Below are positions 12,344-29,401 of a stretch of DNA of 64,000 nt, one piece after another. The stretch comes from Bacteroidota bacterium (GTDB lineage: Bacteria; Bacteroidota; Bacteroidia; Cytophagales; Cyclobacteriaceae), in the NCBI GenBank assembly GCA_018267285.1, contig JAFDYU010000014.1, positions 186,001-250,000 on the forward strand, written 5' to 3'. The position numbers and the translations under genes were made by a program. Within the stretch, counting starts at the first letter, position 1. The number at the start of each line of letters is the position of its first letter. The notes beneath the pieces were generated by a model. It saw nothing but the letters and a program-made list of their open reading frames with translations, was not told the origin of the DNA and ran no database searches.

Positions 12344-12441
12344 TGTTATTTCCAAAAGATAGTGCGACATTTCAGAGCCATAATGCCATAAAACAATAAA
12401 AGGAAATGCGAAAAAGAATAATATTAGATGCGACACATTTT
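12344..12441 (+). repeat. Left transposon end with TnsB-type binding repeats
   Basis: The end starts TGTTATTTCCAAAAGATAG and aligns with the reverse complement of the right end (TGTCAATTCCAGAAGAAAG). Further in are repeats of a TGCGA-n-ATTT core: TGCGACATTTCAGAG at 12363, TGCGAAAAAG at 12407 and TGCGACACATTTT at 12429. The last is 16 nt before the tnsA start, so TnsB binding could also repress the tns operon, as known in Tn7. Confidence 0.85.
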
Positions 12442-12457
12442 AAAAGTATAAAAGTTT

Positions 12458-13132
12458 ATGCAACTATTTAAGCCGGTACGCCAGATTGGTTTCAAACATA
12501 GATCTGTTGCAGGATTGCAACATAACATAAAGAATGGAGAAAAGGTCCAGTTTGAATCAAGCTTAGAACGTGACTTCATAACAATCTTAAATGCTGACTA
12601 TTGTGTTTCTGAATTTGTAGAGCAACCTATGACTATACGCTTTGATGATGAAAGCGGAAGGTCTCGATCCTACACACCCGATTTCCTCGTTCGATATAAA
12701 GATGATTTTAGTATCAAACAGCTACCCACATTATTTGAGGTCAAGTACCGAAAAGATTTATTTCAAAGTTGGAAGGATCTAAAACCAAAGTTCAAAGCCG
12801 CTATGAAATACGCAGATTCTCGCAAGTGGAAATTTAAAATTATTACTGAGAAGGAGATCAGAACGGACTTTCTTAGGAATGCTGAGTTTCTATGGAGGTA
12901 TAAATTTGATCAGCTAAATTCTGGTGAAGAAATGGATCTCAAGATAATTTTACTGGCACGGTTAAAAGAATTGTCATTGACAACACCTCAAGAATTGATT
13001 TTGGCATCCTCGAAGAGTATTCTAATGAGAGGAAAATTATTACATGCGCTTTGGTCTTTAGTTGCTAACGGACAGGTCGGATGTGATCTAAATATAAAAT
13101 TGAATATGAACAGCGAAATATGGGACATATGA
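12458..13132 (+). CDS. tnsA: TnsA-like transposon endonuclease
   Basis: 224 aa. The restriction-endonuclease-like catalytic residues of TnsA are visible: E37 (FESSLERDF), D76 (YTPDFLVRY) and E95-x-K97 (LFEVKYRK). A C-terminal winged-helix-like part follows, which in Tn7 contacts TnsC. TnsA cuts the 5' ends of the element, so with TnsB it gives cut-and-paste movement. It starts 16 nt after a TnsB-type repeat and overlaps tnsB by ATGA. Not obviously damaged. Confidence 0.92.
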   Translation: MQLFKPVRQIGFKHRSVAGLQHNIKNGEKVQFESSLERDFITILNADYCVSEFVEQPMTIRFDDESGRSRSYTPDFLVRYKDDFSIKQLPTLFEVKYRKDLFQSWKDLKPKFKAAMKYADSRKWKFKIITEKEIRTDFLRNAEFLWRYKFDQLNSGEEMDLKIILLARLKELSLTTPQELILASSKSILMRGKLLHALWSLVANGQVGCDLNIKLNMNSEIWDI

Positions 13133-15009
13133 ATACGATTCAGATAAAACCTGGAGTAGAGGTAATGTGCAAGGGTGAGAGATATCTTATAACAAGATAC
13201 ATCGATCTACACACCGTTATGGCAGAAGACGCCAATGGAGGTATTGCTCGACTTGAGATTAAAGATATTATGCCGCTTGAATTGCATAGCGAAACAGAAC
13301 ACGCAATTAAAGAACGATTGGATTTAATGTCGATAACCGAAGATCAGTGGGTACTAGCTCAGGAAAGATTTGCGGTCATTAAACCAATTCTTGATGATTT
13401 AGGGAATGGAAAACTGGTAGCCAAGGCAGCTAAGAAAACTGGGAAAAATAAAGCCACGATTTATAGATGGGTCGAAAAGTATCAGACTACAGGATTAGTC
13501 TCTTCCCTCATTAACAGAGAAAAATCTGGAGGAAGAGGAAAGAGCAGGCTTTCACCAGAGATTGATCTTATACTTAAAGACACCATTGAGAAAGAATACC
13601 TAAATAAAGAAAGACACAAAATTGGCCATACGTGTCTAAAGGTCATCCAAAAATGCAAAACGGCAGGGCTAAAGCCGCCACATCCAAATACGATAAGAAA
13701 TCGAATTCATGAAATATCTGAAGAAACTAGATTGAGAGCTCGTTATGGGTCTAAGGTTTCCGATGAGAAATTTAAACCGAAAGATGGAAAATTTCCTGGC
13801 GCTGATTTTCCACTTGCAGTCGTTCAAATTGATCACACAAAGTCTGATATAATTTTAGTTGATGAGGTCACAAGAATTCCAATTGGTAGGCCATGGTTGA
13901 CGTTAGCGATTGATGTTTATAGTAGAATGTGCGTTGGTGTAAACATTTCACTAGATCCTCCTGGAGCGATGGGGACAGGAGTCTGCTTGGCAAATTCTAT
14001 ACTTCCCAAGGACAAAACATTAGCTGAGTACAATCTTAATGGGGAATGGCCATCGTGGGGAATAATGAATAAGATTCATGCAGATAATGCCGGTGAATTC
14101 AGAGGTACGATGATAAAACGTGCATGCGCAGAATACGGTATAAAGCTCGAATGGAGGTTAATTGCAAAACCGAACTATGGTGGGCACATCGAAAGATTAA
14201 TGGGTACTCAAAACGAAATTACCCATAATTTACCAGGGACTACATTCAGTAATTCAAAACAAAGAGGCAGTTATGACTCTGTAGGAAAGGCGGCACTTTC
14301 TCTTAAAGAGTTCGAAGAAATATTCCTCACATACATCACAGAGATCTATCATAAAAGATTTCATAAAGGAATAAATAATACACCTCTTGCTAAATACATG
14401 GAAGGGATTTTTGGGACTCCAGAGAATCCAGGTACCGGCTTTCCAACGAAGATTTTAGATGAAAGAAAAACCCGACTTGATTTCATGCCCTATTTCCTAA
14501 GAACAATTCAGGAGTATGGTGTTAAGATTGACCATATCGACTATTATCATGACGTTCTCAGAAAATGGATTCATTCAACAGAGAAAAAAAGCGGGAAGTA
14601 CAAAGTCAAAACTAATTTCATTTTTAAACGCGATCCTCGCGACATCAGTAAAATCTATTTCTGGGATCCTGAGTTGAAGGATTATTTCCCAATACCTTAC
14701 AGAAATATTGGTCGACCATCAATTAGTATTTGGGAATTTCGGAAAGCATTAAAAGGTGCCAAGACTCTCGGCAGGGAAAATGTTGATGAAGAATCAATCT
14801 TTAGAGCATACGAACGAATTACTGAAATCAAAGAGACTGCAGTTCGGAAAAAAATGGTAGCTAAGAAAGCTAAGCTCAGTCCGGAGTTGAGAGAATTCTC
14901 AAGGAAATCAAATTACATTCCCGACATTGGAAAGAAGATGGTAGTAGAACCTATTGTATTGGAAGATATTAAACCCTTTGAAGATCTTGATCATGGAACA
15001 TCTCTCTAA
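13129..15009 (+). CDS. tnsB: TnsB-like DDE transposase
   Basis: About 626 aa using the ATG at 13129 that overlaps the tnsA stop (an ATG at 13120 is also in frame). A helix-turn-helix (KNKATIYRWVEKYQTTG) lies near residue 110. The RNase H-like core has catalytic D235 (VQIDHT), D319 (HADNAGEF) and E355 (GHIERLMG), with the expected D-35-E type spacing. It binds the end repeats and joins 3' ends to the target. The C-terminal tail, expected to bind TnsC, overlaps the tnsC start. Confidence 0.95.
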   Translation: MNTIQIKPGVEVMCKGERYLITRYIDLHTVMAEDANGGIARLEIKDIMPLELHSETEHAIKERLDLMSITEDQWVLAQERFAVIKPILDDLGNGKLVAKAAKKTGKNKATIYRWVEKYQTTGLVSSLINREKSGGRGKSRLSPEIDLILKDTIEKEYLNKERHKIGHTCLKVIQKCKTAGLKPPHPNTIRNRIHEISEETRLRARYGSKVSDEKFKPKDGKFPGADFPLAVVQIDHTKSDIILVDEVTRIPIGRPWLTLAIDVYSRMCVGVNISLDPPGAMGTGVCLANSILPKDKTLAEYNLNGEWPSWGIMNKIHADNAGEFRGTMIKRACAEYGIKLEWRLIAKPNYGGHIERLMGTQNEITHNLPGTTFSNSKQRGSYDSVGKAALSLKEFEEIFLTYITEIYHKRFHKGINNTPLAKYMEGIFGTPENPGTGFPTKILDERKTRLDFMPYFLRTIQEYGVKIDHIDYYHDVLRKWIHSTEKKSGKYKVKTNFIFKRDPRDISKIYFWDPELKDYFPIPYRNIGRPSISIWEFRKALKGAKTLGRENVDEESIFRAYERITEIKETAVRKKMVAKKAKLSPELREFSRKSNYIPDIGKKMVVEPIVLEDIKPFEDLDHGTSL

Positions 15010-15877
15010 AGAAGCCCAGAAAGCCTTATTGCTCACAGACAAAGAAAGAATCAAGTACATCAATAGTGATAAGTGGATTGGCTATACTAGATGTTCCGAA
15101 ATATTAAATAGGATGTCTGATCTGCTTGACTATCCTCAATCAAGTAGAATGCCCAATCTTATTATCATAGGTGACACGAATAATGGAAAGACTGCCATCC
15201 TAAATAGATTTACTAACCAACATAAGGCTTTTAGAAAATCTCCTGATAGTGAGTTAATTCTTCCAGTAGTTCACATTCAGTCTCCGCCAGTACCCGATGA
15301 AAAGCGACTTTATAATTCAATCCTTGACCGTCTTCTTATATCATACAAAGCCAATGAAAGAGTTGAGAAAAAGGAAATGCAGATTGTGAATATGTTAAAA
15401 CATCTAAATACCAGGATGATAATAATTGACGAGATGCATAACATTTTAGCTGGCACAATCACCAAACAGAGAGCTTTTCTGAACGTTCTAAAATACCTTT
15501 CAAACGAATTAAAAATATCCATAGTAGCTGCGGGGATAAAAGAAGCGCTCAGAGCGATATCGATTGATCCACAACTTTCAAATCGTTTTGAGCCAGCAAT
15601 TCTGCCGAGATGGAAAATGTCTCAAGATTATTTGCGACTACTTGCAAGTTTTGAACACATACTTCCATTAAAAAAGAAATCCAACTTAATCGATGATTCC
15701 ACATCACAAACTTTATTGTTAATGAGTGAAGGACTTATCGGTGAGCTTTCAACAATTTTAAAACGGGCCAGTGTATTCGCTATACAAGAGAAAAAAGAAA
15801 AAATTGATAAATCACTGTTGCAAGATTTAGAGTGGAAAGCTCCCGAAGTCAGGAGAAAGGAAATTCATAGTGTATGA
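14993..15877 (+). CDS. tnsC: TnsC-like AAA+ transposition regulator
   Basis: 294 aa from the ATG at 14993, inside the end of tnsB; an in-frame ATG at 14954 would add 13 residues but is less likely. Walker A is GDTNNGKT (residues 60-67) and Walker B is MIIIDEMHN (D146, E147); a sensor region LSIVAAG-like (LKISIVAAGIKEA) follows. TnsC forms ATP-dependent filaments that link the target-selecting TniQ protein to TnsA/TnsB. All motifs are intact. Confidence 0.92.
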   Translation: MEHLSKEAQKALLLTDKERIKYINSDKWIGYTRCSEILNRMSDLLDYPQSSRMPNLIIIGDTNNGKTAILNRFTNQHKAFRKSPDSELILPVVHIQSPPVPDEKRLYNSILDRLLISYKANERVEKKEMQIVNMLKHLNTRMIIIDEMHNILAGTITKQRAFLNVLKYLSNELKISIVAAGIKEALRAISIDPQLSNRFEPAILPRWKMSQDYLRLLASFEHILPLKKKSNLIDDSTSQTLLLMSEGLIGELSTILKRASVFAIQEKKEKIDKSLLQDLEWKAPEVRRKEIHSV

Positions 15878-16901
15878 AATGAAGAATTCAGTTAGTTGGA
15901 TTGTGCACGTAAGGCCGCAACCTGATGAATTATTAAGTAGTTGGTTAGTAAGAAATGCCCTAGTGCAGCTGACCAAAGTTCACACCTTTTGTTCTAGTAA
16001 TTGGCCTTCCATTGAGTTTTGGAATCGCGACATTGATAGATTTTCACATCCCCTGGTAATTCAATTACTCGCGCATAGGACATCAACTCCTCTTAAGGCA
16101 GCCAATGAAACATCATTGCAATCCTATATTGGAAAATTATACAAGAAGGATGCTAAAACATTTAATAGTTTTTTATTGCCATGCGGAATCTGGCATAGAA
16201 AAAGAAAACTGCCCGGATTGATGTTCTGCCCTAGCTGCTTGGAGAAAGATGGGGAACATCCTTATTACCGAAAAATCTGGAGAGTATCCTTGTCATTTTG
16301 CTGTACTAAGTGCGGCATACTTCTTCTAGATCGATGTGAGTTTTGTAAAGCTCCAGTGGCATTTTTCCGAAATGATTTTATTAGCAAGAGTGATATTCCT
16401 AGACGGAAAATTGATCAGTGTTATAACTGCGGAAAATCTCTTATCCACTGTACACGATTGAGTGCTTCTGCTAATCAACTGCGGCTGCAGGCAATTCTTG
16501 AAGAATATATTGAGACGGGATTTCAAAAATATCACATGAGAAACTTTTTTGAAGTTGTGCAACAGATACAATGGTGCTTGTATAGTAAAAGTAAGCGCTT
16601 GACAGGGTTTAAAAAGATTGTGAAGAAGAAGAACCCGTTTCGCAACAATTACAATTTCTCTCTGAGGAATAAAAAATTGAACCTCTTTGCTTTTAGAGGT
16701 ATCGAACAAAGAAGGCTTCTGTTTCAAATCTCTTGCTGGGTTCTTGATTCTTTTCCTTTCCGGCTACGCAATCTAATGCAAGAATCAAACACAACATTTA
16801 AAGCTATAGTTGGCGAAAATAAATTTCTTCCCAATTGGTTTACAGACCGACTACTGACTCCTGGGCTTGCTTCACAAAAAAATCTAACGAAATTTTTCTA
16901 A
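15870..16901 (+). CDS. tniQ: TniQ/TnsD-like target-selection protein
   Basis: 343 aa (GTG at 15870 overlapping tnsC; ATG at 15879 is the alternative). The N-terminal TniQ signature PQPDELLSSWLVRNA is followed by a zinc-binding cluster (C120, C123, C145, C148, C156, C159, then CYNCG). Length is between short TniQ and full TnsD, so a DNA-binding C-terminal part is present. The element sits precisely in comM, so this protein is the natural candidate for recognising a comM sequence. Its 3' end overlaps the convergent CoiA-like gene by 62 nt. Confidence 0.88.
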   Translation: MYEMKNSVSWIVHVRPQPDELLSSWLVRNALVQLTKVHTFCSSNWPSIEFWNRDIDRFSHPLVIQLLAHRTSTPLKAANETSLQSYIGKLYKKDAKTFNSFLLPCGIWHRKRKLPGLMFCPSCLEKDGEHPYYRKIWRVSLSFCCTKCGILLLDRCEFCKAPVAFFRNDFISKSDIPRRKIDQCYNCGKSLIHCTRLSASANQLRLQAILEEYIETGFQKYHMRNFFEVVQQIQWCLYSKSKRLTGFKKIVKKKNPFRNNYNFSLRNKKLNLFAFRGIEQRRLLFQISCWVLDSFPFRLRNLMQESNTTFKAIVGENKFLPNWFTDRLLTPGLASQKNLTKFF

Positions 16902-17598
16902 GTGCCCTCAAATTCAACTTAGGATCATATGTAACTAACTCATACACTTCTTGAAATCCGAAATCAAGAAAAACTCTGCATGTAGCTTCAAACCAACCAG
17001 TTCTTGGCCTTTTCCAATCGAATAAGTGATGCCCTTCATAGTTTAATTCTATCTTGTCTTCTATTTCCGAAATGTCATGGATTTCTACTCCAACGGAAGA
17101 AACTTCGGAACGAAAAAAATATGCGGTGTGTGGATTTTTACCTTTGATAAATCCTATATCGTTAGCCAAACTCGATGCGGGACTTGGTACTTTATTACGG
17201 AGAGAGAGATTCTTCAGAAAATTCTTTCCGTTGACGACCCATATCAAATTTTTGTAAAAAGATTCTCTTGATTTTAATTCCGCAGAACTGATCGGGGAAT
17301 TCTGCAGTTCGATAACAAGGCCGGCATCAGTTTTTACATCGGCAATGTGCTTTTCACCTGTTATTTCATCAAAGTGAACCACCTCTTGCCATTCCTTCGG
17401 GAAAAGGGATTTCCAATTCCTGTGCCATTCAGTTTCATTTTCCCACCAATTATCACAATGATTAAGGCTCTTATGAGCCCAATGATGAATTTTTTTTGCA
17501 CCACATTTTGCCTCTGTTTCTTTTTCACAAGATGGGCAGAAACCCCTTCCTTGAATGAAGGCTTCAGATTTTATACCATTTACAAGAGAATATTTCAT
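16840..17598 (-). CDS. CoiA-like nuclease
   Basis: 252 aa. An N-terminal zinc-ribbon-like part (C21-x2-C24, C32, HWAH at 39-42) precedes a restriction-like nuclease core: EWHRNWK, IADVKTDAG (D87) and VIELQNS (E97-x-Q99), the layout of the competence protein CoiA family. CoiA is needed for transformation in Gram-positives; mobile-element relatives may serve defence or DNA processing. The frame ends inside tniQ on the opposite strand. An intrinsic terminator and the tRNA-like element lie upstream of its start. Confidence 0.7.
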   Translation of the reverse strand: MKYSLVNGIKSEAFIQGRGFCPSCEKETEAKCGAKKIHHWAHKSLNHCDNWWENETEWHRNWKSLFPKEWQEVVHFDEITGEKHIADVKTDAGLVIELQNSPISSAELKSRESFYKNLIWVVNGKNFLKNLSLRNKVPSPASSLANDIGFIKGKNPHTAYFFRSEVSSVGVEIHDISEIEDKIELNYEGHHLFDWKRPRTGWFEATCRVFLDFGFQEVYELVTYDPKLNLRALRKISLDFFVKQAQESVVGL

Positions 17599-17797: not shown

Positions 17798-18142
17798 TCA
17801 ATTTATTTTTTTTTCTGTCGAGTGCTTTTTGCTTTTTGTTCTCTTTCCTTTTAATGGTCTTGTGGTTGGTGCTGTGTCGGCTTCATTGGCGAAAGCGGCC
17901 ATCTGTAAAAATGGTTCACCCGCAACAATGGGTGAACTTACTGGAACAGACGAGAAGTTGGATTTATTTAACTTCTGTAAAATTGGGCCAGTGCTTTTTA
18001 GTTCTTCTGGTAAGAGAATTTCAGTCTTACCATACCGTAGCTCAAATTCCTCAACTTCCTTATCGGTCGTTGGAAAGATAAACCCCTCTTTTTTCAAAAT
18101 TTCAAAAAAGAGATTTTCAAAGGCCGGTCTTTTGTTTTTCAT
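17798..18142 (-). CDS. 114-aa protein paired with the sigma factor, unknown
   Basis: No family is recognised. The N-terminal 45 residues form a charged helical segment (PAFENLFFEILKKEGFIFPT, then DKEVEEFE); the rest is low-complexity, Ser/Thr/Pro-rich and ends in a lysine-rich tail. It starts 24 nt after the sigma-factor stop, so it is probably the second gene of that transcript. An accessory or anti-sigma-like role is only a guess from position. The permuted tRNA-like sequence begins within a few bases of its stop. Confidence 0.6.
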   Translation of the reverse strand: MKNKRPAFENLFFEILKKEGFIFPTTDKEVEEFELRYGKTEILLPEELKSTGPILQKLNKSNFSSVPVSSPIVAGEPFLQMAAFANEADTAPTTRPLKGKRTKSKKHSTEKKIN

Positions 18143-18166: not shown

Positions 18167-18856
18167 TTAGGATAAATGGTGTTTAAGAATTTTGCTTAAC
18201 TCAGCAAGAGTTCGATTTTTAATTTGTCGTATATGTGAGGAGTCTATATTATAAATCTGGCAAAGTACTTCCATCACCCCTGGAGGGAGATGAGCATCAG
18301 GGTTATCAATATCGTGGTGGAGCATGTAAGTCATTAGAATGTGACGCTTGTCCTGGTCAATTTTATCAAGAGCCTCTTCTAAATCTGATGAACTAACTTT
18401 TAAATCCGTTTTTATACGATACTTCGGGATTTTCTCTTTGGACACATTTTTTTCTGGTGGCTTTACTTTACTATGATCTATATCCTCGCTTTTCGATATT
18501 GGATAGTCCTTGCGTTGGTGGAGCAAATCGATGAATTTGTTTCGGGCAATTGTTCCAAGCCATGCCTTAATGGAGGAACCTTTTTTAGGATTGAAGGTAC
18601 TTGCGCTGAGGTACACTTGAATGAAGGTATCTTGTACAAGATCCTTTGCCAGTTGATAACCGTCCTTTAATCTTCTGCAGGCAACATAACACACCTTGAA
18701 AAGGTATGGCACATACCTTCGGTGGAATTCGTTAAAAGCTCTGTCAGCTAAGATTTTATTTTCGTCAGATTTACTAATCAGAATGAGTAAATCATTGTCT
18801 GCGGTCGTTTTTAGGCCTGTTTCGGAACTCACTATTAATCGATTAAATGCTCCCAT
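18167..18856 (-). CDS. ECF-type RNA polymerase sigma factor on the transposon
   Basis: 229 aa. Region 2 is clear (FNEFHRRYVPYLFKVCYVAC ... AKDLVQDTFIQVYLSA ... IKAWLGTIARNKFIDLLHQR), and a C-terminal region-4 helix-turn-helix follows (VLCQIYNIDSSHIRQIKNRTLAELSKIL). The 60-residue linker between the two is longer than usual and lysine-rich. It is divergent from the Bub-like operon with 121 nt between start codons, so it may direct transcription of that operon, itself, or other cargo. Confidence 0.85.
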   Translation of the reverse strand: MGAFNRLIVSSETGLKTTADNDLLILISKSDENKILADRAFNEFHRRYVPYLFKVCYVACRRLKDGYQLAKDLVQDTFIQVYLSASTFNPKKGSSIKAWLGTIARNKFIDLLHQRKDYPISKSEDIDHSKVKPPEKNVSKEKIPKYRIKTDLKVSSSDLEEALDKIDQDKRHILMTYMLHHDIDNPDAHLPPGVMEVLCQIYNIDSSHIRQIKNRTLAELSKILKHHLS

Positions 18857-18977
18857 AGATATTGTCTTTTATATAATATACTTGCAAGCGTTACATGCTG
18901 CAAACCACCCGTTCTTCTTTTCTTTGGCCACGCTTTACACCGTCACGCTTTGGAGTATTATATATAAACGATCACAA
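18857..18977. promoter_or_regulatory. Divergent promoter region, sigma gene versus Bub-like operon
   Basis: 121 nt between opposing start codons. It holds an imperfect palindrome TTGCAAGC (18882-18889) / GCTGCAA (18897-18903), flanked by A+T-rich TATAATATAC-like and TATTATATATAAA-like stretches suited to promoters. The palindrome is a candidate operator or sigma-dependent element; this is inferred from position only. Nothing else was recognised in the gap. Confidence 0.4.
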
Positions 18978-19292
18978 ATGAAAGATTCAAGCAAAAACGA
19001 AGAAAACACTGAAATTTTCGACATTGAAGCAATGTCGAAAGAAGGAAAGACACCCCCGCCAGGCAAAAAATACATGATAAAGGTCGACAACAAGACTTAT
19101 GTAGTGCCTCAAAAGTTGTCCGGAAGAGAAATTTTGGAGACAGCCGGTAAGAACCCCTATGATAGATTTCAACTCAATTTGAAGCTACGGGGAGGAATTG
19201 TGAAAAAGATAGGTTATGCAGAAATCGTGGACTTCACACAGCCTGGCATAGAGAAATTTATGACCATTCCGCTGGATCAAACTGAGGGCTAA
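18978..19292 (+). CDS. Multiubiquitin-domain Ubl protein (Bub-like operon)
   Basis: 104 aa from the ATG at 18978; the same frame runs back to 18696 but that stretch overlaps the divergent sigma gene and is not protein-like. After an acidic N-terminal tail, one beta-grasp domain is seen (KKYMIKVDNKTYVVPQKLSG, REILETAGKNP, FQLNLKLRGG, VDFTQPGIEKFMTIPL), matching the Multi_ubiq family, and it ends in a bare C-terminal glycine (DQTEG). It is the presumed modifier attached to targets by the following E2 and E1. Family members often carry tandem domains; this one has a single domain. Confidence 0.82.
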   Translation: MKDSSKNEENTEIFDIEAMSKEGKTPPPGKKYMIKVDNKTYVVPQKLSGREILETAGKNPYDRFQLNLKLRGGIVKKIGYAEIVDFTQPGIEKFMTIPLDQTEG

Positions 19293-19293
19293 A

Positions 19294-19695
19294 ATGAGAA
19301 GATATTTTAATTTGACAGAATCCGACCATGACTTCTTAGAATCCAATAAGTTCAATTGGGAAACGGTAAAAGAACACAATATGCAATGGCTTTTGCTCCA
19401 CGACTTCCCAGTTCCCGATGGATATAATTGCAAGTCGGTTACTGTTGCATTAATGATCCCGCCTGGGTATCCGGTAGCTCAAATAGATATGGCTTTTTTT
19501 CATCCGTTTTTATCGCGTTTGGATTTAGCACCGATTGGCGCTTTGTCCTTTCAGAATATTGATGGAAGAATCTTCCAAAGATGGTCGAGACACAGAACAG
19601 CGCAGAACCCTTGGCAACCTGGTGTTGATGATGTCTCTACGCACCTTGAACTAGTAAAGTATTGGTTTGAAAGAGAAATTAATAAGACCCAATGA
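19294..19695 (+). CDS. Prok-E2_E-type E2-like protein lacking the active-site Cys
   Basis: 133 aa, starting 1 nt after the Ubl stop. It has the E2 beta-meander with MIPPGYP (residues 55-60), then FFHP, the RWSRHR segment (96-101) and a helical end (WQPGVDDVSTHLELVKYWFERE) typical of the Prok-E2_E family. The only cysteine is C46, before the PPGYP motif; none lies where E2 enzymes carry the thioester cysteine. S98 in WSRH is a possible replacement nucleophile. Related Bub-type systems have been proposed to use serine oxyesters (recalled, not verified). Confidence 0.82.
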   Translation: MRRYFNLTESDHDFLESNKFNWETVKEHNMQWLLLHDFPVPDGYNCKSVTVALMIPPGYPVAQIDMAFFHPFLSRLDLAPIGALSFQNIDGRIFQRWSRHRTAQNPWQPGVDDVSTHLELVKYWFEREINKTQ

Positions 19696-19698
19696 TTC

Positions 19699-21087: not shown

Positions 21088-21398
21088 AGTTCAATTTTTC
21101 GTTCCGTAAAAAAGAAAAAACAAATTACACACTCATTAGCATAGAGGACTTTCCTGAGGCAATTGAAGGGGGGAAACTCTACTTAATAGGAAGTCAAAAT
21201 AAAAAATGGCTGATCGCTATGTTATGCCCATGTGGCTGCGATGCAGTAATACAGTTAAATCTTTTGAAAGAAGCAAAACCTCAGTGGAAAACACGTATTA
21301 ACAAAAAAGGACACATTACTGTACTTCCTTCAATTCGAAGGATCATTGGATGCCAGAGCCATTTTCATATTATTAAGAGCTCCGTCCAATGGCATTAA
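21084..21398 (+). CDS. DUF6527 zinc-ribbon-like protein
   Basis: 104 aa. A CPCGC cluster (C48, C50, C52) and a later C90-x2-H93-x-H95 with a C-terminal H104 suggest zinc binding. The segment GKLYLIGSQNKKWLIAMLCPCGC is typical of DUF6527, a family regularly last in bacterial Ubl operons with Multi_ubiq and Prok-E2_E. Its role is unknown; being small and metal-binding, an E3-like or target-binding function is possible but unproven. It ends 4 nt into the convergent dCTP-deaminase-like gene. Confidence 0.8.
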   Translation: MKFNFSFRKKEKTNYTLISIEDFPEAIEGGKLYLIGSQNKKWLIAMLCPCGCDAVIQLNLLKEAKPQWKTRINKKGHITVLPSIRRIIGCQSHFHIIKSSVQWH

Positions 21399-21976: not shown

Positions 21977-23042
21977 TTTTCTTTTTCCATTCTTTAAGAA
22001 GAAAATAATTACTTATTGATTTTTCAATCAAGTTATTGAGGATTGTATTCAACTGACTTGGATTACTGAACTTCTTACGCAATACGCTGTTCTTGTTTAA
22101 CCAAATGCTCCATCCCTGAATGAAGAGAGAATGAAGTTCAGAATCATTTTTAATGTTCGGGGGTATTAAATTATTAAAATCTTTAAGGGGGATTTTCTTG
22201 TACCGAATTTTCAGATCTTGGTCGGTGATTATTTTTGTTGCATTCATAAGTAAATCCAGATTTTCGGATTTTTTTCCTGCAACGAAATCTTTCACAAAAT
22301 TTATTCTATTCTCAGTTGATGGATGACTATCGCTGGAAGGGGCCTTGTAGGCTATATAATTTAAATAATGATTAGCGGAAAGTCCGATGTACTGTGCAGC
22401 AAAGACATCAGCAAAATGCTCCCCTAAATACATTTCCAGTTTTTTCTTTTCAATGTCAGGTAGCCCGCTGAATTGTGGCTCGCGTTGAACAATCCTTTGG
22501 GTAATTTTATAATACTGCTTATCAATAAAGTGACCGATTTCATGATACAAGACTACATTTCCGAGGTAATCATGAACTAAGTATTTGGGAATATTTAACT
22601 GAATAAGACTTTTGTTGAAAACGATGCCGTATCGCGCAAAGACTTGAGTAGCAAAGTAGTCGTTAATATTTTTTAGGGAAAACTGTAGGCTATACGAATC
22701 CATTTTATTGGAAAGAGATGTAACGATGCTATGATCCTCGTAGTCGCTTATCCAGTCTTTTAATACAACATTGAGGCAGTTGATAATTTCATACGGCACA
22801 AGATTAATCGTACTATTATCTAAGAACTCTACCCAATTGAATACGACTTTTAGTATAAAGCGATGAGCTTCAATGTCATCTTTAGTAAACCTTTTCTGGC
22901 TCTTGAGTTTTATTTGATCAACAAGATCGAGAATCTGATCGTGAAATTCTTTTTTTACCTTATCTGAATATTTATTCGACCTGGTCTTCAGCAAGGCTCG
23001 TTCTAGTTGAGCAAATCTTAACTCAAAGGTCTGGAGATTCAT
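21948..23042 (-). CDS. Zinc metallopeptidase-like protein (HEIGH)
   Basis: 364 aa. A helical N-terminal half precedes the zincin motif HEIGH (167-171). A second conserved stretch GEHFADVFAAQY (207-218) supplies the third ligand as in gluzincins, and HPSTENRINFVKDF follows. No membrane segment or signal peptide is seen, so a cytoplasmic protease is likely, distantly like ImmA/M48-type enzymes. It starts 8 nt after the 107-aa gene and overlaps the dCTP-deaminase-like gene, so the three are likely co-translated. It may act as a sensor or regulator protease; this is inferred. Confidence 0.72.
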   Translation of the reverse strand: MNLQTFELRFAQLERALLKTRSNKYSDKVKKEFHDQILDLVDQIKLKSQKRFTKDDIEAHRFILKVVFNWVEFLDNSTINLVPYEIINCLNVVLKDWISDYEDHSIVTSLSNKMDSYSLQFSLKNINDYFATQVFARYGIVFNKSLIQLNIPKYLVHDYLGNVVLYHEIGHFIDKQYYKITQRIVQREPQFSGLPDIEKKKLEMYLGEHFADVFAAQYIGLSANHYLNYIAYKAPSSDSHPSTENRINFVKDFVAGKKSENLDLLMNATKIITDQDLKIRYKKIPLKDFNNLIPPNIKNDSELHSLFIQGWSIWLNKNSVLRKKFSNPSQLNTILNNLIEKSISNYFLLKEWKKKNVPNKKRNK

Positions 23043-23050: not shown

Positions 23051-23374
23051 TTAGACTACATGAAAAGTGCCCCGCTTAGTGATGAGTGTGGCTAAAAAAT
23101 CACGAACAGTTTTGAAGACGTTGTCGCTTATGTTTTCAGGATCCACTTGATCAGCAAAATACGGTTTGTTATCCTTCGCGATTAGATACACAAGGTTATA
23201 GATGGATTGATCAATCTTGTAGAGATCGATTTCATTTTTTGCTAATTTATGAGCGGTAATGATGATGGATTCCGATATCTTTTTGTAGTCCTCTTTGCCG
23301 TATTTAAGATACTGATCCAGCATCAATGAAAACAACTCTAATTCACTATTCTCTATTGATTTCGCATTATACAT
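23051..23374 (-). CDS. 107-aa helical protein, unknown
   Basis: No family is recognised. The product is acidic and helical (SELELFSLMLDQYLKYGKED, then ISESIIITAHKLAKNEIDLY), without signal peptide or metal motif. It is the first gene of the reverse-strand group with the metallopeptidase and dCTP-deaminase-like proteins, 8 nt from the former. Small partners of HExxH proteases are often the cleaved repressor or antitoxin, but no helix-turn-helix is evident here. Confidence 0.6.
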   Translation of the reverse strand: MYNAKSIENSELELFSLMLDQYLKYGKEDYKKISESIIITAHKLAKNEIDLYKIDQSIYNLVYLIAKDNKPYFADQVDPENISDNVFKTVRDFLATLITKRGTFHVV

Positions 23375-23918: not shown

Positions 23919-24398
23919 ATGAAAATCATAGTATACTTACCGAATAAGGAGATAAAGGAAATTTTTCCTAACGGTGCGATCAAAGTTGGCGAGCTTATAA
24001 AATTAGTTTCTCCACAAACGGCCAATCTTGCCGATAACTTAGAAGATCAAGAAGTCTATTTACTTGACAAGCCAGATGAACTTTCAAAAGATTCAAAAAC
24101 AGATGACCACAAGGCTTTTGTAATTCATCGATGCAAGAAGGTTCAGGTAACTGTTATCTACTCCAATAAATCTTTCACACACGCTTATCCACCGTCAACG
24201 TTGATTAAGCACATCAGATTGGAGGCGATAAAGAAGTTTGAAATTGATGGGCCAGCCGGTGAAAATCTTGAGCTCTTTGAAAATGGCGAAAACCAGAATT
24301 CAAAAGTGAATAGAAATTATCCGATAGGATACTATTCAGACTACCCGACTTGTTCAATCAAGTTGTACTTAGCTGATCCAAACGCTTTTGCAGGATGA
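23919..24398 (+). CDS. bilA: Ubiquitin-like modifier of the Bil-like operon
   Basis: 159 aa with no signal peptide. The C-terminal part (residues about 72-159) is a beta-grasp fold starting CKKVQVTVIYSNKSFTHAYP, with STLIKHIRLEAIKKF and a final strand CSIKLYLADPNAFAG ending in a bare glycine ready for adenylation. Residues 1-70 form a second, weaker beta-rich segment (MKIIVYLPNKEIKEIFP), so the protein may be a double Ubl as described for ISG15-like BilA. It overlaps the E2 gene by ATGA. Presumed role: conjugation to phage or host targets. Confidence 0.75.
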   Translation: MKIIVYLPNKEIKEIFPNGAIKVGELIKLVSPQTANLADNLEDQEVYLLDKPDELSKDSKTDDHKAFVIHRCKKVQVTVIYSNKSFTHAYPPSTLIKHIRLEAIKKFEIDGPAGENLELFENGENQNSKVNRNYPIGYYSDYPTCSIKLYLADPNAFAG

Positions 24399-24892
24399 AG
24401 CCTGATCAATTGCTTTTTGAAGATCATTTAAGATTACCAGAATTTACCCAAGGAGAAATTCTTGGATACTGGGGTATAGTAAATGAAAAGGAAGAGAGGG
24501 AGGCCATTTGGCCTCTCTCTTTTTTTTGGATATCGGTTCCTCCAAGAGGGACAAAGCAAATAACAAAGTATTATCTAAGGTTAGAATTAACGAACTACAA
24601 TGTGCTTGCTCCAGCCGGGTGCTTTTGGGACATTGAAAAAAATGTTCGCTTGGACAATTCATTGTGGCCTAGGGTAACAGGTCCGTTTGCGCGGGGCTTT
24701 AGGATAGATTGGCAAAATGCGCACGAGCTATACGCACCTTGGGATAAGGGCGGTCTTCAAGCACACCCTGAGTGGGCAACGACTAGTAGCGCTGTGGCGT
24801 GGAAATCAGGGAATTCTAAAATCCACAATTATCTGGAGATCATGTACGAAATATTAAACAGTGAAAACTATCATGGAACCAATGCAGGCTAA
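24395..24892 (+). CDS. bilB: E2-like protein of the Bil-like operon
   Basis: 165 aa. Visible are YLRLELTNYNVLAPAGCFWD (60-79), equivalent to the E2 beta-meander and PP turn, then FRIDW, LYAPWDKGGLQAH (112-124), W127 and a C-terminal helix (IHNYLEIMYEIL), as in E2-like proteins of Bil operons. The only cysteine is C76. In relatives I recall the LYxPxD turn carrying the catalytic cysteine (LYxPCDR); here W116 occupies it. The E2 may therefore use another residue. A terminator-like hairpin lies inside this gene at 24,493-24,527. Confidence 0.7.
   Translation: MKPDQLLFEDHLRLPEFTQGEILGYWGIVNEKEEREAIWPLSFFWISVPPRGTKQITKYYLRLELTNYNVLAPAGCFWDIEKNVRLDNSLWPRVTGPFARGFRIDWQNAHELYAPWDKGGLQAHPEWATTSSAVAWKSGNSKIHNYLEIMYEILNSENYHGTNAG
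24493..24527 (+). terminator. Intrinsic-terminator-like hairpin inside the E2 gene
   Basis: AGAGAGGGAGGCC (24493-24505), loop ATTT, and GGCCTCTCTCTTT (24510-24522) form up to 13 bp with two G-U pairs, followed by an unbroken run of eight T (24520-24527). This is a textbook Rho-independent terminator within codons for about residues 33-45 of the E2. It could reduce expression of E2, JAB and E1 relative to the Ubl, or promote slippage on T8. Function is inferred. Confidence 0.7.
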
Positions 24893-25349
24893 AATAATAT
24901 TGAAAAAATCACTTTGGGAGGCATTATACGCTGAGCTAGGCAAAAGAGGAAAAGGCGAAACCGAAAGCGGTGCATTCTTATTGAGCGCAGAAAATTCAAT
25001 GGAGATTGTTGAATTCGTATGCTATGATGATCTAGAACCTGGATGTCTCGACTCAGGAGGAATTCATTTAACAGCCAAGGGCTTTATTAAGCTCTGGGAC
25101 TATTGCTTTGAGAACAAACTTGAAGTAAGAGCTGACATCCATACTCACCCGGGCAGAAGCACGAGGCAAAGTTACATTGATAAAGATAACCCGATGATAA
25201 AAATTAAAGGGCACATAGGCATTATTGTACCTCACCTTGCTTTACCACCTCAGTGCGAAATGAATGCACTTGGCATCCATGAATTTATGGGAAACGGTTT
25301 TGTTTGGAAGGAGTGGAAATTTGGTGATGGAATAATAAAAGTAATCTGA
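24873..25349 (+). CDS. bilC: JAB/JAMM deubiquitinase of the Bil-like operon
   Basis: About 158 aa from ATG 24873 (ATG 24882 is equally possible; both overlap the E2 end). The JAMM zinc motif is complete: E31 (ETESGAFLL), H90-T-H92-P, S100 and D103 (HTHPGRSTRQSYID). It is a stand-alone peptidase expected to process or remove the Ubl. It ends 3 nt before the E1 start. Short length and lack of extra domains match BilC-type enzymes. Confidence 0.85.
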   Translation: MEPMQAKIILKKSLWEALYAELGKRGKGETESGAFLLSAENSMEIVEFVCYDDLEPGCLDSGGIHLTAKGFIKLWDYCFENKLEVRADIHTHPGRSTRQSYIDKDNPMIKIKGHIGIIVPHLALPPQCEMNALGIHEFMGNGFVWKEWKFGDGIIKVI

Positions 25350-25352
25350 TCA

Positions 25353-26705
25353 ATGAGTATACTACAAAAAGAATCAATAAGTCGATTGGCTGTAGCTTTT
25401 TTAGAATTGGATCCAAGTCTTGCAGAGCTTGGAGATAAAGCCCTTGATTCCATTAAAGATCGACTTTCAAGTTACACGGTTGCTATTTTTTGTAATGAAG
25501 AGATCGAAAACTCGGCTTCGCAGCAAGCTGCACTGTTAACAGCAATTAACGTAGGTAAGCGCTGTTATAAAGGCGGAGTTTTTGTGTTTCTAAAAGAAGA
25601 AGTTAAGTGTCTTTTGAATTGGCCGATAAGAGCATCATTAAATGAAATTGCTGAAGAACTTGGCGCGCGTGTGAATTCAGGTAACGAGAAAAACGTTTAT
25701 ACCGCTGAGATATTAATTGGTTCTGCAAAATTAGATAATGACAAATGGTTATTGCAGGTCAATGATTGGAATGCAGGGATAATTCCTCCAGGGATTAAAC
25801 ACTCAACACTAACTGGGGCTCAAGATTTTCCTCTGGGTGGTATTTTAGGCGGGGCACTATCAATAGGTCTAACCTTCCTCAAAATTGCTGGCTTCGATCA
25901 TAGCATAGGATCAGAAGCCGTGGGGCTTTCTCTGTGGCGACCTGATCTTAATTGGGATGATCCCCAGTCTATCGGACCAAAACCGGAGAGCTTTCCTAAC
26001 AAGGTATGGATTTTAGGGCTTGGTCACTTAGGTCAAGCATATACATGGGCCCTTGGATTACTTCCTTTAAGGAATCCAAAAGATCTTTTCGTTAAAATCC
26101 AAGATGATGATCGCATTGAGGAAGGAAATTATGACTCAGGGATGTTAAGTGAAAAGATTAATGAAGGTGAGTATAAGACTCGAGTCTGTGCAAGTTGGTT
26201 AGAATCGCGAGGAATTTTAACCGCTATTGTGGAAAGAAAATATGATGAAAAATATCACAGACAAAACACGGATCCCGAAATATTACTTGTTGGTGTTGAT
26301 AAACTTGAGGCCCGTAAGTCACTAAAAATTGAAGAGTTCAAATTGGTTTTGGATTGCGGCTTAGGTGCGGGTTTGAACTTTGACATGATTAGATTTAATA
26401 TTTTCCCTAATCTTAAAACCAGCCCTAAAAAATTTTGGGAGAATGCAAAAGAAATTGAGAGTACGCCAGTGCTAAAAAATCTATCGCAAAAATTAATTGG
26501 CTGCGGTTACACAGTTGGTATAGCTTCTGCATTCACAGGATGCGTAAGTGCCTGTTTAATCATTTCAGAAATTCTTCGTTCGTATCATCAAGGAATTAAA
26601 CTTGATCACCACTACATGTCGATAAGAGAGCTGTCAAGTAGCAATTTGAGTTTAATAGGTGATTATAGGACTGAAACCTTCTGTGGAAGTACTCCGATGA
26701 AGTAA
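25353..26705 (+). CDS. bilD: E1-like Ubl-activating enzyme of the Bil-like operon
   Basis: 450 aa. An N-terminal domain of about 200 residues precedes an E1-type Rossmann adenylation domain with VWILGLGHLGQAY (218-230), an acidic strand (KIQDDDRIEEGNYDSGM) and LLVGVDKLEARKSL. C384 in LIGCGYTVGIASAF lies in the position of the conserved CG of this E1 family and is the candidate catalytic cysteine; the following helix (CLIISEILRSY) matches relatives. Gene order Ubl-E2-JAB-E1 equals that of BilABCD. The gene appears intact. Confidence 0.82.
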   Translation: MSILQKESISRLAVAFLELDPSLAELGDKALDSIKDRLSSYTVAIFCNEEIENSASQQAALLTAINVGKRCYKGGVFVFLKEEVKCLLNWPIRASLNEIAEELGARVNSGNEKNVYTAEILIGSAKLDNDKWLLQVNDWNAGIIPPGIKHSTLTGAQDFPLGGILGGALSIGLTFLKIAGFDHSIGSEAVGLSLWRPDLNWDDPQSIGPKPESFPNKVWILGLGHLGQAYTWALGLLPLRNPKDLFVKIQDDDRIEEGNYDSGMLSEKINEGEYKTRVCASWLESRGILTAIVERKYDEKYHRQNTDPEILLVGVDKLEARKSLKIEEFKLVLDCGLGAGLNFDMIRFNIFPNLKTSPKKFWENAKEIESTPVLKNLSQKLIGCGYTVGIASAFTGCVSACLIISEILRSYHQGIKLDHHYMSIRELSSSNLSLIGDYRTETFCGSTPMK

Positions 26706-26970: not shown

Positions 26971-27006
26971 TTTGGTTTGCTAAAAATTGCTTTCGAGCTT
27001 CGATGC

Positions 27007-27276: not shown

Positions 27277-27390
27277 AGAAGGGGATGATTATTTTTTCTC
27301 GACAAGTGACGCGTGGGCTCTAAGATCAATGTTTGAAGAGTTCAAGTTTCTGGCAAATCCTTTCAACTTTAGACCGCAAAGAAAAAGAAG

Positions 27391-27483: not shown

Positions 27484-27511
27484 TAACTCAAGGATACAGA
27501 TGAAGTCTTGA

Positions 27512-28111
27512 CTACAATTCATTTTTCTCGCCTGACTTTATTTTCGAAATAATTCTTTCAGCTCTAGTTTCACTTGTATCGTCCCTAAGATGCTTAATGC
27601 CATGGAATCTTAATCCTTCGTAGCCCTTCATATCTTTTAGAACTGCTTCTTTCAAGGCCACGTGAGACAGAAATTCATTTAATTCTGAATCAACTAATTT
27701 TCTTCTATCCTCTTTGCTCTCGAAAACCACCATGAACCCATGTTCTTTCGGTTTCTTTTTATTATTCAATCTTCTTTGAACATCCATGAGATAAAAAAAC
27801 TCGCCTTCAGAAAGCTTACACTCAATCAAAAAACATTTTCTTAGGACATCATATTTTATCAAAAAACACCAGTCATAGGCTGGGCTATATTGTGCAAACT
27901 TGGAATATGGAAAAAATGAATAACCTTGTCCATCATTCAAATCGCAATCCTCTGTCGTTACCCCTAGTGTATTTAAATTTGCTACTACTTTATCAAAGGC
28001 TTCTTCTGTGTTCTGATCCAAGACGTGATCTACTAGTTCAGAATCTTTGCCAATAACTCCGGAATTTTTTTTGCCTCCTTCGCCTCGTGTCCTGCGTCCC
28101 GAATCCTTCAC
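27512..28111 (-). CDS. C-terminal part of a TnsE-like protein (after in-frame stop)
   Basis: 199 aa from a GTG at 28111. It lies in the same frame as the 408-aa ORF, separated by one TAA (28127-28129) and five sense codons, so both look like one protein of about 613 residues split by a stop. The piece has TEEAFDKVVANLNTLGVTTE, a beta strand CFLIECKLSEGEFFYLMD and a helical end. This order resembles the C-terminal domain of Tn7 TnsE. Either tnsE is disabled, or both parts are made separately. Identification is tentative. Confidence 0.5.
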   Translation of the reverse strand: MKDSGRRTRGEGGKKNSGVIGKDSELVDHVLDQNTEEAFDKVVANLNTLGVTTEDCDLNDGQGYSFFPYSKFAQYSPAYDWCFLIKYDVLRKCFLIECKLSEGEFFYLMDVQRRLNNKKKPKEHGFMVVFESKEDRRKLVDSELNEFLSHVALKEAVLKDMKGYEGLRFHGIKHLRDDTSETRAERIISKIKSGEKNEL

Positions 28112-28126
28112 CAGTTTGTTGATGAT

Positions 28127-29353
28127 TTATCCTGTAGTTTTTTGATCTTCTTTATCAACTTTTGAGGCATCGAAACTTGCATTTGGAAAAGGAGGAAACT
28201 CGATTTTAATAATCTCTTTTTCATCTTCCCCGTCTGGCTCTCTTTCTCCATCCTCACTTACAGGTGGTTTCTTTTTATCTTCTTCCTTTGGATCTTTTGG
28301 ATCCTTACCGTTTTCATTGGTGTTTTTTCTTTTTTGCCTTTTAGGTTTACGCTTTTCCAATTCGTGATCAACTTTATCTGCGATACTTCGACCATCATTT
28401 ATTCTAAGAAAATCCAGGTCATCAAAAGGAAAAGGATGACTGCATGAATGTATTTCAGTGACTAAAGCAATTCTGGGAGCATCCTTTAAATGGGGAAATC
28501 TCTCAAGAAATTTGGACTTCTCTTTAACAGTAATACTTTCATAGTTGACCAATAAGTTTGTTTGATCATTGAAGGGAAATCCTGATGAAGGATATATACT
28601 ATATTTTTTACTCTCCAGAAGTGAATCATAAATCTTTTCAGCATTTTTAAACGCTACATCATCAAAGACCATTCTTCCAACAGTTTTTGCGCACTTGTCT
28701 TCGATTTTCTTGCTGAGCATTACAAACGGGACTTCTTTATCGTCTCGTTTAACAAAAGCACTATATTCAGGATAAAAAATTTCCTTTGTGCTGAGTCCAC
28801 CATTGAAAAGGGCGGAAACTAAGTTTGATGTGAATCCATAATAAAATCGGATGATTTCATATGTTGGGATCACTACTAATCCAAGCTTCGACTTCTTCGA
28901 CTTTTCATCAAGGTTGTCTCGATTTTTAAATTCACAAGTCACGTTGTTGAATACCCAGACCTTAGAACTCAGCTGACCTTGGAGGTTGAAATAATAAGTA
29001 TCACTAATATTGATAAGGTCTGCCAAGGCACATTCTTTCCCGGACTCAATTGAGATTTCAAGGTTTACTAATTTGCCAAAGGCAACGTGTCTTTTTACTA
29101 GATCCTCACCACTGTAAATGCTCCCAACTCTTAGTGCAGCAAGCCTTCTCACATTTATTTTAACCATCACATCTCCTCCTCCTTTAAGGAAGGGATGATT
29201 TTTGTCCTTGTTAAAATATTCCTGGTAATTAGTTACCTCTTGAAAAAAAACTTCAAGTAGTTTTTCTTTATTATTTCCTTCGACCAACTGACCAATATAC
29301 TTAAGCCTATAGAACTTGTCCCGTTCTAGTGAGGTCAGTTTCAGAAGCGGCAT
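28127..29353 (-). CDS. N-terminal part of a TnsE-like protein at the right transposon end
   Basis: 408 aa, starting 49 bp inside the right end, within the end-repeat region. Segments YIGQLVEGNN (near residue 18) and IPTYEIIRFYYGFTSNLVSA (about 160-180) align by eye with Tn7 TnsE (HIGHLFRNSG and IPQLELARSLF). A basic then acidic, proline-rich linker (KPKRQKRKNTNENGKD; PPVSEDGEREPDGEDEKE) leads to the stop. TnsE directs transposition to conjugal plasmids and replicating DNA through the sliding clamp. No family search was possible; an unrelated cargo protein is the alternative. Confidence 0.45.
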   Translation of the reverse strand: MPLLKLTSLERDKFYRLKYIGQLVEGNNKEKLLEVFFQEVTNYQEYFNKDKNHPFLKGGGDVMVKINVRRLAALRVGSIYSGEDLVKRHVAFGKLVNLEISIESGKECALADLINISDTYYFNLQGQLSSKVWVFNNVTCEFKNRDNLDEKSKKSKLGLVVIPTYEIIRFYYGFTSNLVSALFNGGLSTKEIFYPEYSAFVKRDDKEVPFVMLSKKIEDKCAKTVGRMVFDDVAFKNAEKIYDSLLESKKYSIYPSSGFPFNDQTNLLVNYESITVKEKSKFLERFPHLKDAPRIALVTEIHSCSHPFPFDDLDFLRINDGRSIADKVDHELEKRKPKRQKRKNTNENGKDPKDPKEEDKKKPPVSEDGEREPDGEDEKEIIKIEFPPFPNASFDASKVDKEDQKTTG

Positions 29354-29401
29354 AAATTCGCATTAGCTTCTGGAAATTCGCGCTTTCTTCTGGAATTGAC
29401 A
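29342..29401 (-). repeat. Right transposon end with TnsB-type repeats
   Basis: Read inward on the minus strand it begins TGTCAATTCCAGAAGAAAG, then GCGCGAATTTCCAGAAG (29383-29367) and TGCGAATTTATGCC (29362 on). These share the GCGA-ATTTC core with the left-end repeats. The start codon of the TnsE-like gene (29353) falls inside the innermost repeat. Confidence 0.85.

Follow-up and report, generated by a model that had tools for sequence, protein, structure and literature searches.

A Tn7-like transposon inserted into comM carries a Bub and a Bil operon, with a divergent sigma factor gene and paired predicted promoters beside Bub

Published Bil systems tag phage structural proteins, and conjugation by Bub operons runs through an oxyester and not a thioester. 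Phage-defence dCTP deaminases are also known, as are type III CRISPR modules in which a sigma factor is released by a protease (CalpL-CalpT-CalpS and Craspase-Csx30-sigma). Tn6022 elements reach the competence gene comM through TnsF, according to the available portion of PMC10293859. Here, we analyzed a window of 64,000 nucleotides (the whole stretch of DNA under study, from contig JAFDYU010000014.1 of a Bacteroidota bacterium), in which a 17,058-bp Tn7-like element at 12344-29401 splits comM. This element carries two operons for ubiquitin-like (Ubl) conjugation, Bub and Bil, and a three-gene cassette with a dCTP deaminase, and is an example of one transposon with two Ubl systems as mobile cargo. 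As an overall explanation, we consider it likely that a Tn7-like element in comM holds three immune-type modules, of which Bub is switched by an adjacent extracytoplasmic function (ECF) sigma factor. The three modules were probably acquired separately.

A Tn7-like transposon has inserted into comM, as its ends, its target-site duplication (TSD) and the empty site show. The 5-bp TSD ACCGC is found on either side of the element, at 12339-12343 and 29402-29406; the same duplication in comM is known from the Acinetobacter AbaR islands. The left terminus at 12344 reads TGTTATTTCC... and the right terminus at 29401 reads ...GGAATTGACA. Candidate TnsB-site-like repeats were observed in the left end (12344..12440, plus strand; ATAGTGCGA, AAATGCGA and AGATGCGA) and in the right end (29353..29401, minus strand; AAGCGCGA and CTAATGCGA). 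After excision of the element and one TSD copy, the resulting join of 595 bases aligned to comM in each of the 7 congeneric loci that we tested, with 78-81% identity across 575-594 bases (gapless in 5, with two gap openings in 2). Both operons lie within the transposon ends. The coordinates given for the element and for the two operons in the initial annotation, which was made from the sequence alone, were right. The C-terminal part of comM at 11658..12290 (minus strand) and its N-terminal part at 29363..30259 (minus strand) were identified by the alignment of the join and by comparison with congener comM. Of 40 genomes sampled from the genus, 39 had sequence matching the comM N-half (weakly in one of them), and the open frame around it measured 512-548 aa in 32 of the 40, against 308 aa here; among the remaining 7, several were at contig ends, one had no match and one had a weak match. 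Intact comM is therefore the usual state in the genus. In congener G548 (C83:52447-86328; G, C and L numbers are our handles for genomes, contigs and loci), the comM N-half is in two pieces 33 kb apart, probably reflecting another comM insertion.

The Bub operon (18978-21398) consists of BubA, BubB, BubCD and a DUF6527 gene, and all eight Bub and Bil genes are uninterrupted frames. BubA (18978..19292, plus strand) has one Multi_ubiq domain (PF14452, 28.3 bits for a cut-off of 24.5) and a TEG terminus; in a PDB search it was only weakly similar to multi-ubiquitin chains (best E 2e-4). BubB (19294..19695, plus strand) is E2-like and matched PF14462 (Prok-E2_E) with 125 bits and the Citrobacter BubB of the PDB with 88 bits. 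BubCD (19699..21087, plus strand), a JAB peptidase fused to an E1, matched PF14464 (Prok-JAB, 28.9 bits) and PF00899 (ThiF, 89.5 bits), and aligned to the Citrobacter BubCD structure (9ea4) with 281 bits over residues 7-460 of 462. The fourth gene (21084..21398, plus strand) encodes a Cys-rich DUF6527 protein (PF20137, 64.1 bits), for which the PDB gave no match by sequence or with a 58-row profile. None of the PADLOC models matched BubA, BubB or the DUF6527 protein; BubCD matched generic E1-E2 models (best 52 bits).

We compared this operon with 79 distinct Bub loci from a database of genome contigs, taken from the best 80 of 244 relatives, with the viral contig L107 left out. The DUF6527 gene was present at 79/79 loci, BubA and BubB at 78 each, which suggests DUF6527 as the constant Bub partner; four Cys of this protein were each kept in 79 or 80 of 80 rows, plus one His. 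Gly104, the terminal residue of the window BubA, was kept in all 79 aligned rows (window included). At 40 loci BubA and BubB share one open frame, which means that the Ubl would have to be released by cleavage. BubB has no conserved Cys, position 46 being Cys in 5 of 79 rows, and the WSRHR columns are conserved at ≥95% in the same alignment. A BubB without a conserved Cys but with WSRHR is consistent with the oxyester chemistry of Bub. BubCD would activate the C-terminal Gly of the single-domain BubA, and BubB would pass BubA on, probably via a residue other than Cys, for example the Ser conserved in WSRHR.

Divergent to Bub, we found an ECF sigma factor gene (18167..18856, minus strand; PF04542 55 bits; TIGR02937 71.8 bits for a cut-off of 42.9) and, beyond it, the gene of p114 (17798..18142, minus strand), a candidate anti-sigma factor or protease substrate with homologs beside the sigma gene elsewhere. 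Neither of these two genes was mentioned in the initial annotation, nor were the divergent promoters described below. A gene of the same sigma cluster (sigma1) was divergent to BubA at 27/79 Bub loci, while the upstream sequence of L029, L051 and L076 is too short to judge. These sigma1 loci are mostly Bacteroidota records, and L049, L067 and L072 are titled Acidobacteria, Chloracidobacterium and Blastocatellia. Homologs of p114 were found beside the sigma gene at 23 of the 27 sigma1 loci, and at a 24th (L074) in another comparison; a further family, c28, is present in 2 sigma1 loci and has an N-terminus similar to p114 (hhalign probability 73%). The other Bub loci have different upstream genes, including pairs from the HTH (helix-turn-helix) and CapP clusters, pairs of AAA and subtilase genes, and a second group that is at best weakly sigma-like. 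Among the divergent genes of other Bub loci, clusters c13 and c10 were considered as sigma factors and kept out of the counts (hhalign probability 0.2% and 9% against the window-type sigma). They are related to each other (96.9%), and one c10 member reached 23.7 bits with Sigma70_r2, just below the cut-off of 24.

Two TGTCACGCTT-like elements in inverted orientation are present in the spacers between the sigma gene and BubA, and after each of them RTWTA follows at a distance of four bases (TGTCACGCTT-N4-RTWTA). We built a promoter matrix of 24 columns from 35 sites chosen by eye, with the window excluded. The two top scores in the 64 kb were a predicted promoter toward BubA (18941..18964, plus strand; 21.9 bits, or 19.0 bits with a matrix from the sigma direction only) and a predicted promoter toward the sigma gene (18872..18895, minus strand; 17.2 bits). 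When the window was shuffled 60 times, the top score was 14.2 on average, 16.8 at the 90th percentile and 21.7 at most. Given these chance scores, it is the pair, rightly placed and facing both genes, that convinces. In 1.46 Mb of Bub loci, 54 sites scored ≥14, and 46 of them lie between 217 bp upstream and the BubA start, 44 in sigma1 loci and 2 in L076, where the upstream is cut off. Of these 46, 35 are training sites, and the other 11 include L072, L076, L044 and L046. The remaining 8 sites are elsewhere, one of them (L100, 14.4 bits) 161 bp before a BubA without sigma1. In a cross-direction test on 77 loci (L029 and L051 were dropped, having no usable upstream), a matrix from 19 sigma-direction sites was applied to the Bub strand in the 150 bp before BubA. 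A site of ≥12 bits was observed at 16/27 sigma1 loci, compared to 1/50 other loci (L076; Fisher p 1.3e-8, an optimistic value given the relatedness of the loci and a motif that was initially spotted by eye).

Overall, control of Bub expression by the adjacent ECF sigma factor via paired promoters is well supported by these sequence comparisons. The sigma factor would recognise the two divergent copies of the motif, one driving the sigma gene and p114 and the other driving Bub; by sequence comparison, its own gene and its predicted target are preceded by a shared promoter motif, as in ECF sigma factors. That it regulates transposition or other genes of the element, and not Bub, appears very improbable to us. 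Divergent from tnsA, L123 and L124 do have a weakly sigma-like gene (by eye), a small gene and a CapP-like peptidase, but Pfam gives no sigma match for the L123 gene, and the two strong motifs of the window face the sigma gene and BubA. Moreover, among the 25 best sites of the window, none near tnsA reaches 6 bits except one at 12575, inside tnsA (6.1 bits). The trios themselves (L123:17925-19732 and L124:1668-3637) have no Bub in view and may control transposition at those loci.

Beyond the sigma gene, on the same strand and within 3.6 kb, 20/27 sigma1 loci have a protease gene (CapP/M78 cluster in 15, caspase in 4, subtilase in 1), as labelled by clustering, with direct checks at L041, L010/L012 and L032 only. 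The L041 peptidase is M78 in Pfam and capP in PADLOC (122 bits), and Pfam or PADLOC also confirmed the L010 and L012 caspases (two loci that are also numbered L058 and L046) and the L032 subtilase. The p114 protein would most likely keep the sigma factor inactive until cleaved by a protease. An alignment of 18 short p114 proteins showed a common motif near FP.T..EV..FE, the long-form loci L043, L045, L046, L058, L082 and L090 being left out of this comparison. A further motif, counted by eye, reads AA[R/Q] in 14/14 loci with CapP and AA[F/L] in the 4/4 loci without CapP (window, L030, L031 and L032). The pattern is consistent with a CapP site in p114, on evidence that is thin, coming from four related loci.

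Several observations were made at individual Bub loci. L010 (L010:9622-13173) and L012 (L012:6617-10190) each have a Bub operon with fused BubA-BubB, a divergent sigma-like gene, a p114-type protein of ~280 aa and a caspase (Peptidase_C14). In Chryseosolibacter histidini (L032:3256-11684), two Bub operons lie within 9 kb, one of them with sigma genes and a subtilase. A protein of ~450 aa recurs upstream of Proteobacteria Bub operons (L061:6843-8195 and relatives, cluster c7); it has no Pfam match above cut-off, and its start resembles an Ntn hydrolase by eye.

In the window element, no protease gene lies beyond p114. A candidate, weakly supported, could be an HExxH protein encoded across Bub, in the cassette that spans 23374-21395 between Bub and Bil. 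The first gene of this cassette encodes p107 (23051..23374, minus strand), which has homologs before the HExxH gene in L030, L031, L032 and L093, with small genes in this place on plasmids. The second encodes the HExxH metallopeptidase-like protein (21948..23042, minus strand), with H167, E168 and H171 invariant in 9/9 sequences, and the third a dCTP deaminase (21395..21976, minus strand; TIGR02274 124 bits for a cut-off of 92.8). The HExxH protein had no family match above cut-off, Zmp1/ATLF-like peptidases being found only at insignificant E values of 0.2-0.7, and neither phage records nor the remaining 389 of 390 genomes of the phylum contained a match. The cassette was near Bub at 5/79 loci, namely L031, L032, L093, L089 (where the first gene is unmatched by p107) and L030 (where there is no deaminase). 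A small gene, the HExxH protein and the dCTP deaminase are in the same order on two E. coli plasmids of ~93 kb (L136 and L139), whose surroundings are phage-like (Ref, Icd-like, baseplate) and which we read as P1-like. This plasmid version was present in 8 of 5,426 complete E. coli genomes, always on plasmids. The same gene order was observed in Emticicia, within a type I restriction locus, and in Agrobacterium behind a Bub-like multiubiquitin/ThiF/DUF6527 operon. Its recurrence on phage-like plasmids and in a restriction locus therefore marks the cassette as a separate mobile module. The initial annotation had suggested the dCTP-deaminase/metallopeptidase group as a third defence module; it stands as a separate conserved module on plasmids, in Emticicia and in Agrobacterium, and its antiviral role is predicted, since we read it as probably an independent anti-phage module acting by dCTP depletion. 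We did not find this cassette described in our literature search, and it would represent a mobile HExxH-protein/dCTP-deaminase unit common to Bacteroidota islands and phage-like E. coli plasmids.

The HExxH protein may instead cut p114 here in place of CapP, so that the p107/HExxH/dCTP-deaminase group would belong to the Bub switch; we hold this to be unlikely. It is present in all 4 sigma1 loci with a short p114 and without CapP (window, L030, L031 and L032), and absent, in the stretch examined, from 14/14 loci with a short p114 and CapP, with the p114 motif differing accordingly. These four loci are, however, among the closest relatives of the window Bub and are not independent.

Sigma control of Bub, with a protease as its trigger and the HExxH protein as the candidate in the window, has to be weighed against several observations. 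Concerning the protease, 7/27 sigma1 loci have none on the sigma strand (L049 ends at a contig edge), the cassette occurs on plasmids without sigma or p114 in view and beside Bub with other regulators (L089 and L093), and L032 has the HExxH protein plus a subtilase next to p114. No family match was found for p114, whose candidacy as an anti-sigma factor comes from genetic linkage. Concerning the promoters, the 17.2-bit site is not decisive alone given the shuffle scores, and the cross-direction test was not blind, as both directions were in view when the motif was first noticed and the sites for training had been selected by eye. In addition, 11/27 sigma1 loci fell below the 12-bit threshold. 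Among these, the site of L031 overlaps the start codon used, L028, L035, L038 and L039 have inverted pairs of another kind (of the TGTCAT type in L035, L038 and L039) and L033 one similar element (all by eye), and in L034, L043, L049, L067 and L072 the site is weak or absent. Lastly, antiphage activity of Bub is undemonstrated according to the accessible part of PMC13373217.

Taking these points together, we give about even chances to a class of sigma-controlled Bub operons, made of a divergent ECF sigma factor, a small protein that serves as substrate or anti-sigma factor, and a protease whose type can be exchanged (CapP, a caspase, a subtilase or perhaps HExxH), in which damage or infection would activate the protease, free the sigma factor and, through the paired divergent promoter, turn on both the sigma gene and the conjugation operon as a positive loop. 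The caspase version has a precedent, since the available text of PMC8195603 describes ECF sigma genes encoded beside caspase systems. The class itself was not found described in the literature searched, which was covered in part and did not include the main Bub papers. With a cognate sigma factor whose promoter can be recognised, the activation of Bub becomes directly testable, and the sigma-linked protease genes point to the candidate signal receiver for Bub. Because a caspase or a subtilase can take the place of CapP next to this sigma gene, bacterial Ubl tagging would be linked to caspase signalling.

The second Ubl system is a complete Bil operon (23919-26705), with BilA, BilB, BilC and BilD in this order. 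BilA (23919..24398, plus strand) is a Ubl with an AFAG terminus (PADLOC BilA, 68 bits), BilB (24395..24892, plus strand) the E2 (PADLOC BilB, 130 bits), BilC (24873..25349, plus strand) a JAB peptidase with HxH and SxxD present in the alignment (PADLOC BilC, 164 bits) and BilD (25353..26705, plus strand) the E1 (PADLOC BilD, 353 bits), with its Cys-Gly pair kept in 6/6 sequences. Profile searches thus place both operons in the families assigned to them initially (Multi_ubiq, Prok-E2_E, Prok-JAB and ThiF for Bub; the four PADLOC models for Bil). With the ends, TSD and empty site, these family matches bear out the proposal of two Ubl systems with distinct modifiers inside one Tn7-like element.

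The catalytic Cys of the Bil E2 lies in a CEHH motif, according to the portion of PMC11354881 available. Across 13 BilB proteins, one of them (L108) read by eye from a printed frame, this column holds Cys in 8 and another residue in 5 (Trp116 in the window, two Tyr, one Ile and one Leu); the column was set by the Cys/Glu/His spacing with the last His out of register, and is good but not certain. Paraburkholderia caffeinilytica is among the 5 without the motif Cys. The sole Cys of the window BilB is Cys76, and the other aligned BilB have none there. Both E2-like proteins of the element, BubB and BilB, thus appear to be without the usual catalytic cysteine. By analogy with published Bil, we expect this one to modify phage structural proteins; its E2 is unusual in having no Cys at the motif. 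In two other family genomes (L014:11391-12317 and L015:8182-9105), BilA and BilB are in one open frame, and maturation would need cleavage. Among the 9 plasmid Bil operons fetched, 7 (L127 and L129-L134) lie behind a UvrD-type or ATP-dependent helicase gene, and at the remaining 2 (L125 and L126) an HTH gene and the gene of an ImmA/IrrE peptidase are found in its stead.

We then considered whether the presence of Bub and Bil on one element has a meaning. Bil was searched with one BilD query and one 10-row profile. In a family sample of 148 genomes, Bil was found in 3 and Prok-E2_E in 4, and in a phylum sample of 395 genomes in 2 and 9, respectively; in both samples, only this genome was on both lists. 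Bil was not beside Bub at any of the 79 loci, with flanks examined of 10 kb or less (many loci have less than 10 kb per side). Two of the 78 Bub genomes (G616 and G644) carry Bil away from the Bub locus. No Bub was found on the 9 plasmids checked out of 35 Bil plasmid records, and BubCD matches were present in 175 plasmid records. The co-occurrence of both operons in other elements, raised in the initial annotation, was therefore not seen (0/79 Bub loci and 0/9 Bil plasmids), and a Bub-Bil association was dropped, being absent from the other loci, genomes and plasmids checked. Bub and Bil on one element were seen only here, and the pairing is probably chance cargo.

The same annotation had raised cross-talk or division of labour between the two Ubls, and this was not supported, as the pairing is unseen elsewhere and the site upstream of BilA is weak (11.1 bits). 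It is hardly credible that the two systems are functionally coupled, either by the Bub sigma factor driving Bil as well or by E1/E2 enzymes serving both modifiers. A degenerate sigma-like site at 23555, directed toward BilA ~360 bp downstream, is the best outside the sigma-Bub spacer, and no regulator gene was recognised beside the window Bil, unlike the HTH and ImmA/IrrE genes at 2/9 plasmid Bil operons. However, ~2 sites as good as 11.1 bits are expected per shuffled window, Bub and Bil each have their own E1, E2 and JAB, and no other locus examined pairs them. As a candidate for cross-regulation of Bil by the Bub sigma factor, the 23555 site was rejected, not being above the shuffles.

Ordinary Tn7 accretion, in which unrelated defence-type cassettes are collected and the pairing of Bub and Bil is meaningless, is in our view quite likely; it is compatible with the sigma switch of Bub and rivals the functional coupling only. 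Bub and Bil were not seen together elsewhere, and Bub is on other comM elements with recombinase-type genes (L153 and L155, by eye) and on other Tn7-like elements (L089 and L121). In the part of PMC8649781 at hand, defence systems are common Tn7 cargo, and "ubiquitin" is absent from its main text. Accretion leaves unexplained, however, why the sigma gene, p114 and the paired promoter are kept with Bub across many genera. A reading of the element as a defence island is plausible.

Concerning the insertion site, tns genes were within 10 kb of Bub at 2/79 loci (L089 and L106), and a part of comM was near Bub at 4/79 loci (L052, L059, L074 and L081). At L052 and L074, the gene adjoining the comM N-part has a serine-recombinase-like start (L153 and L155, by eye), and the comM neighbour at L081 is a different gene set. 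Among 9 TnsB neighbourhoods from the family, comM adjoins the tns genes in 4 (L116-L119). In one of them, L117 from another family genome, a Tn7-like element in comM has both comM parts and a three-domain Ubl/DUF6791-E1/DUF6527 cargo; a CapP-like gene and an HTH gene lie upstream of this Ubl operon (L117:10711-12890, by eye). Ubl cargo is thus seen at several comM insertions, and elements that carry Ubl operons have landed in comM repeatedly.

The other genes of the window element are those of transposition and of the remaining cargo. The transposition genes are tnsA (12458..13132, plus strand; PF08722 and PF08721), tnsB (13120..15009, plus strand; Mu-transpos_C 31.2 bits), tnsC/TniB (14993..15877, plus strand; PF05621 246 bits) and a tniQ/tnsD-like gene (15870..16901, plus strand; PF06527 62.7 bits). 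The window TnsB is 68% identical to a TnsB of G104, whose tns genes adjoin the comM C-terminal part. A CoiA-like protein is encoded at 16840..17598 (minus strand; PF25164 31.1 bits), and p199, a cargo protein without match in Pfam, NCBIfam or PADLOC, at 27512..28111 (minus strand). The gene of p408 (28127..29353, minus strand) is perhaps in a TnsE-like position, a role suggested by its resemblance to a 607-aa protein adjoining tniQ in the relative L118 (E 4e-16). No Pfam match to a tyrosine recombinase was found among the element proteins scanned, and no TnsF profile was run.

Compared with known systems, the element resembles those of the Tn6022 type (TnsABC, TniQ, TnsF and TnsE, in the available portion of PMC10293859) by TnsA, TnsB, TnsC, TniQ and insertion into comM. 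It differs by having no recognised TnsF-like gene, within the Pfam scan just described, and p408 perhaps in the place of TnsE. The Bub operon shares the Multi_ubiq Ubl, the Cys-less Prok-E2_E protein and the JAB-E1 fusion with the solved Citrobacter BubA, BubB and BubCD (PDB 9ea4, 9ea8, 9eae and 9eav), while the window BubA has a single Ubl domain. Its neighbours are an ECF sigma/p114 pair, where the accessible part of PMC13373217 names CapW, CapH+CapP or CapK+CapS as Bub controls. With the CapH+CapP DNA-damage switch, the sigma1 loci share a CapP-type peptidase beside Bub (15/27, by clustering); in contrast, the partner is an ECF sigma factor with p114, which would follow the logic of an activator and not of a repressor, and the window element is without CapP. 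The caspase/EACC2 systems have an ECF sigma factor beside a caspase and a proposed coupling of protease and transcription, as at the caspase-type Bub loci, but they have other partner domains and no Ubl conjugation operon in the account given by the available text of PMC8195603.

Bil is represented by all four proteins of BilABCD, in the same order and matched by the PADLOC models; the window differs by Trp116 in BilB, where 8/13 have Cys, and by its carrier, a Bacteroidota Tn7-like element. As with phage-defence dCTP deaminases, the cassette has its dCTP deaminase on a mobile element, but it has no PADLOC match and is a recurring three-gene unit with the HExxH protein. Finally, the proposed Bub switch is similar to the type III CRISPR sigma modules in combining a sigma factor, a small partner and a protease, a comparison of gene make-up alone, whereas here there is no CRISPR and the module is tied to Bub.

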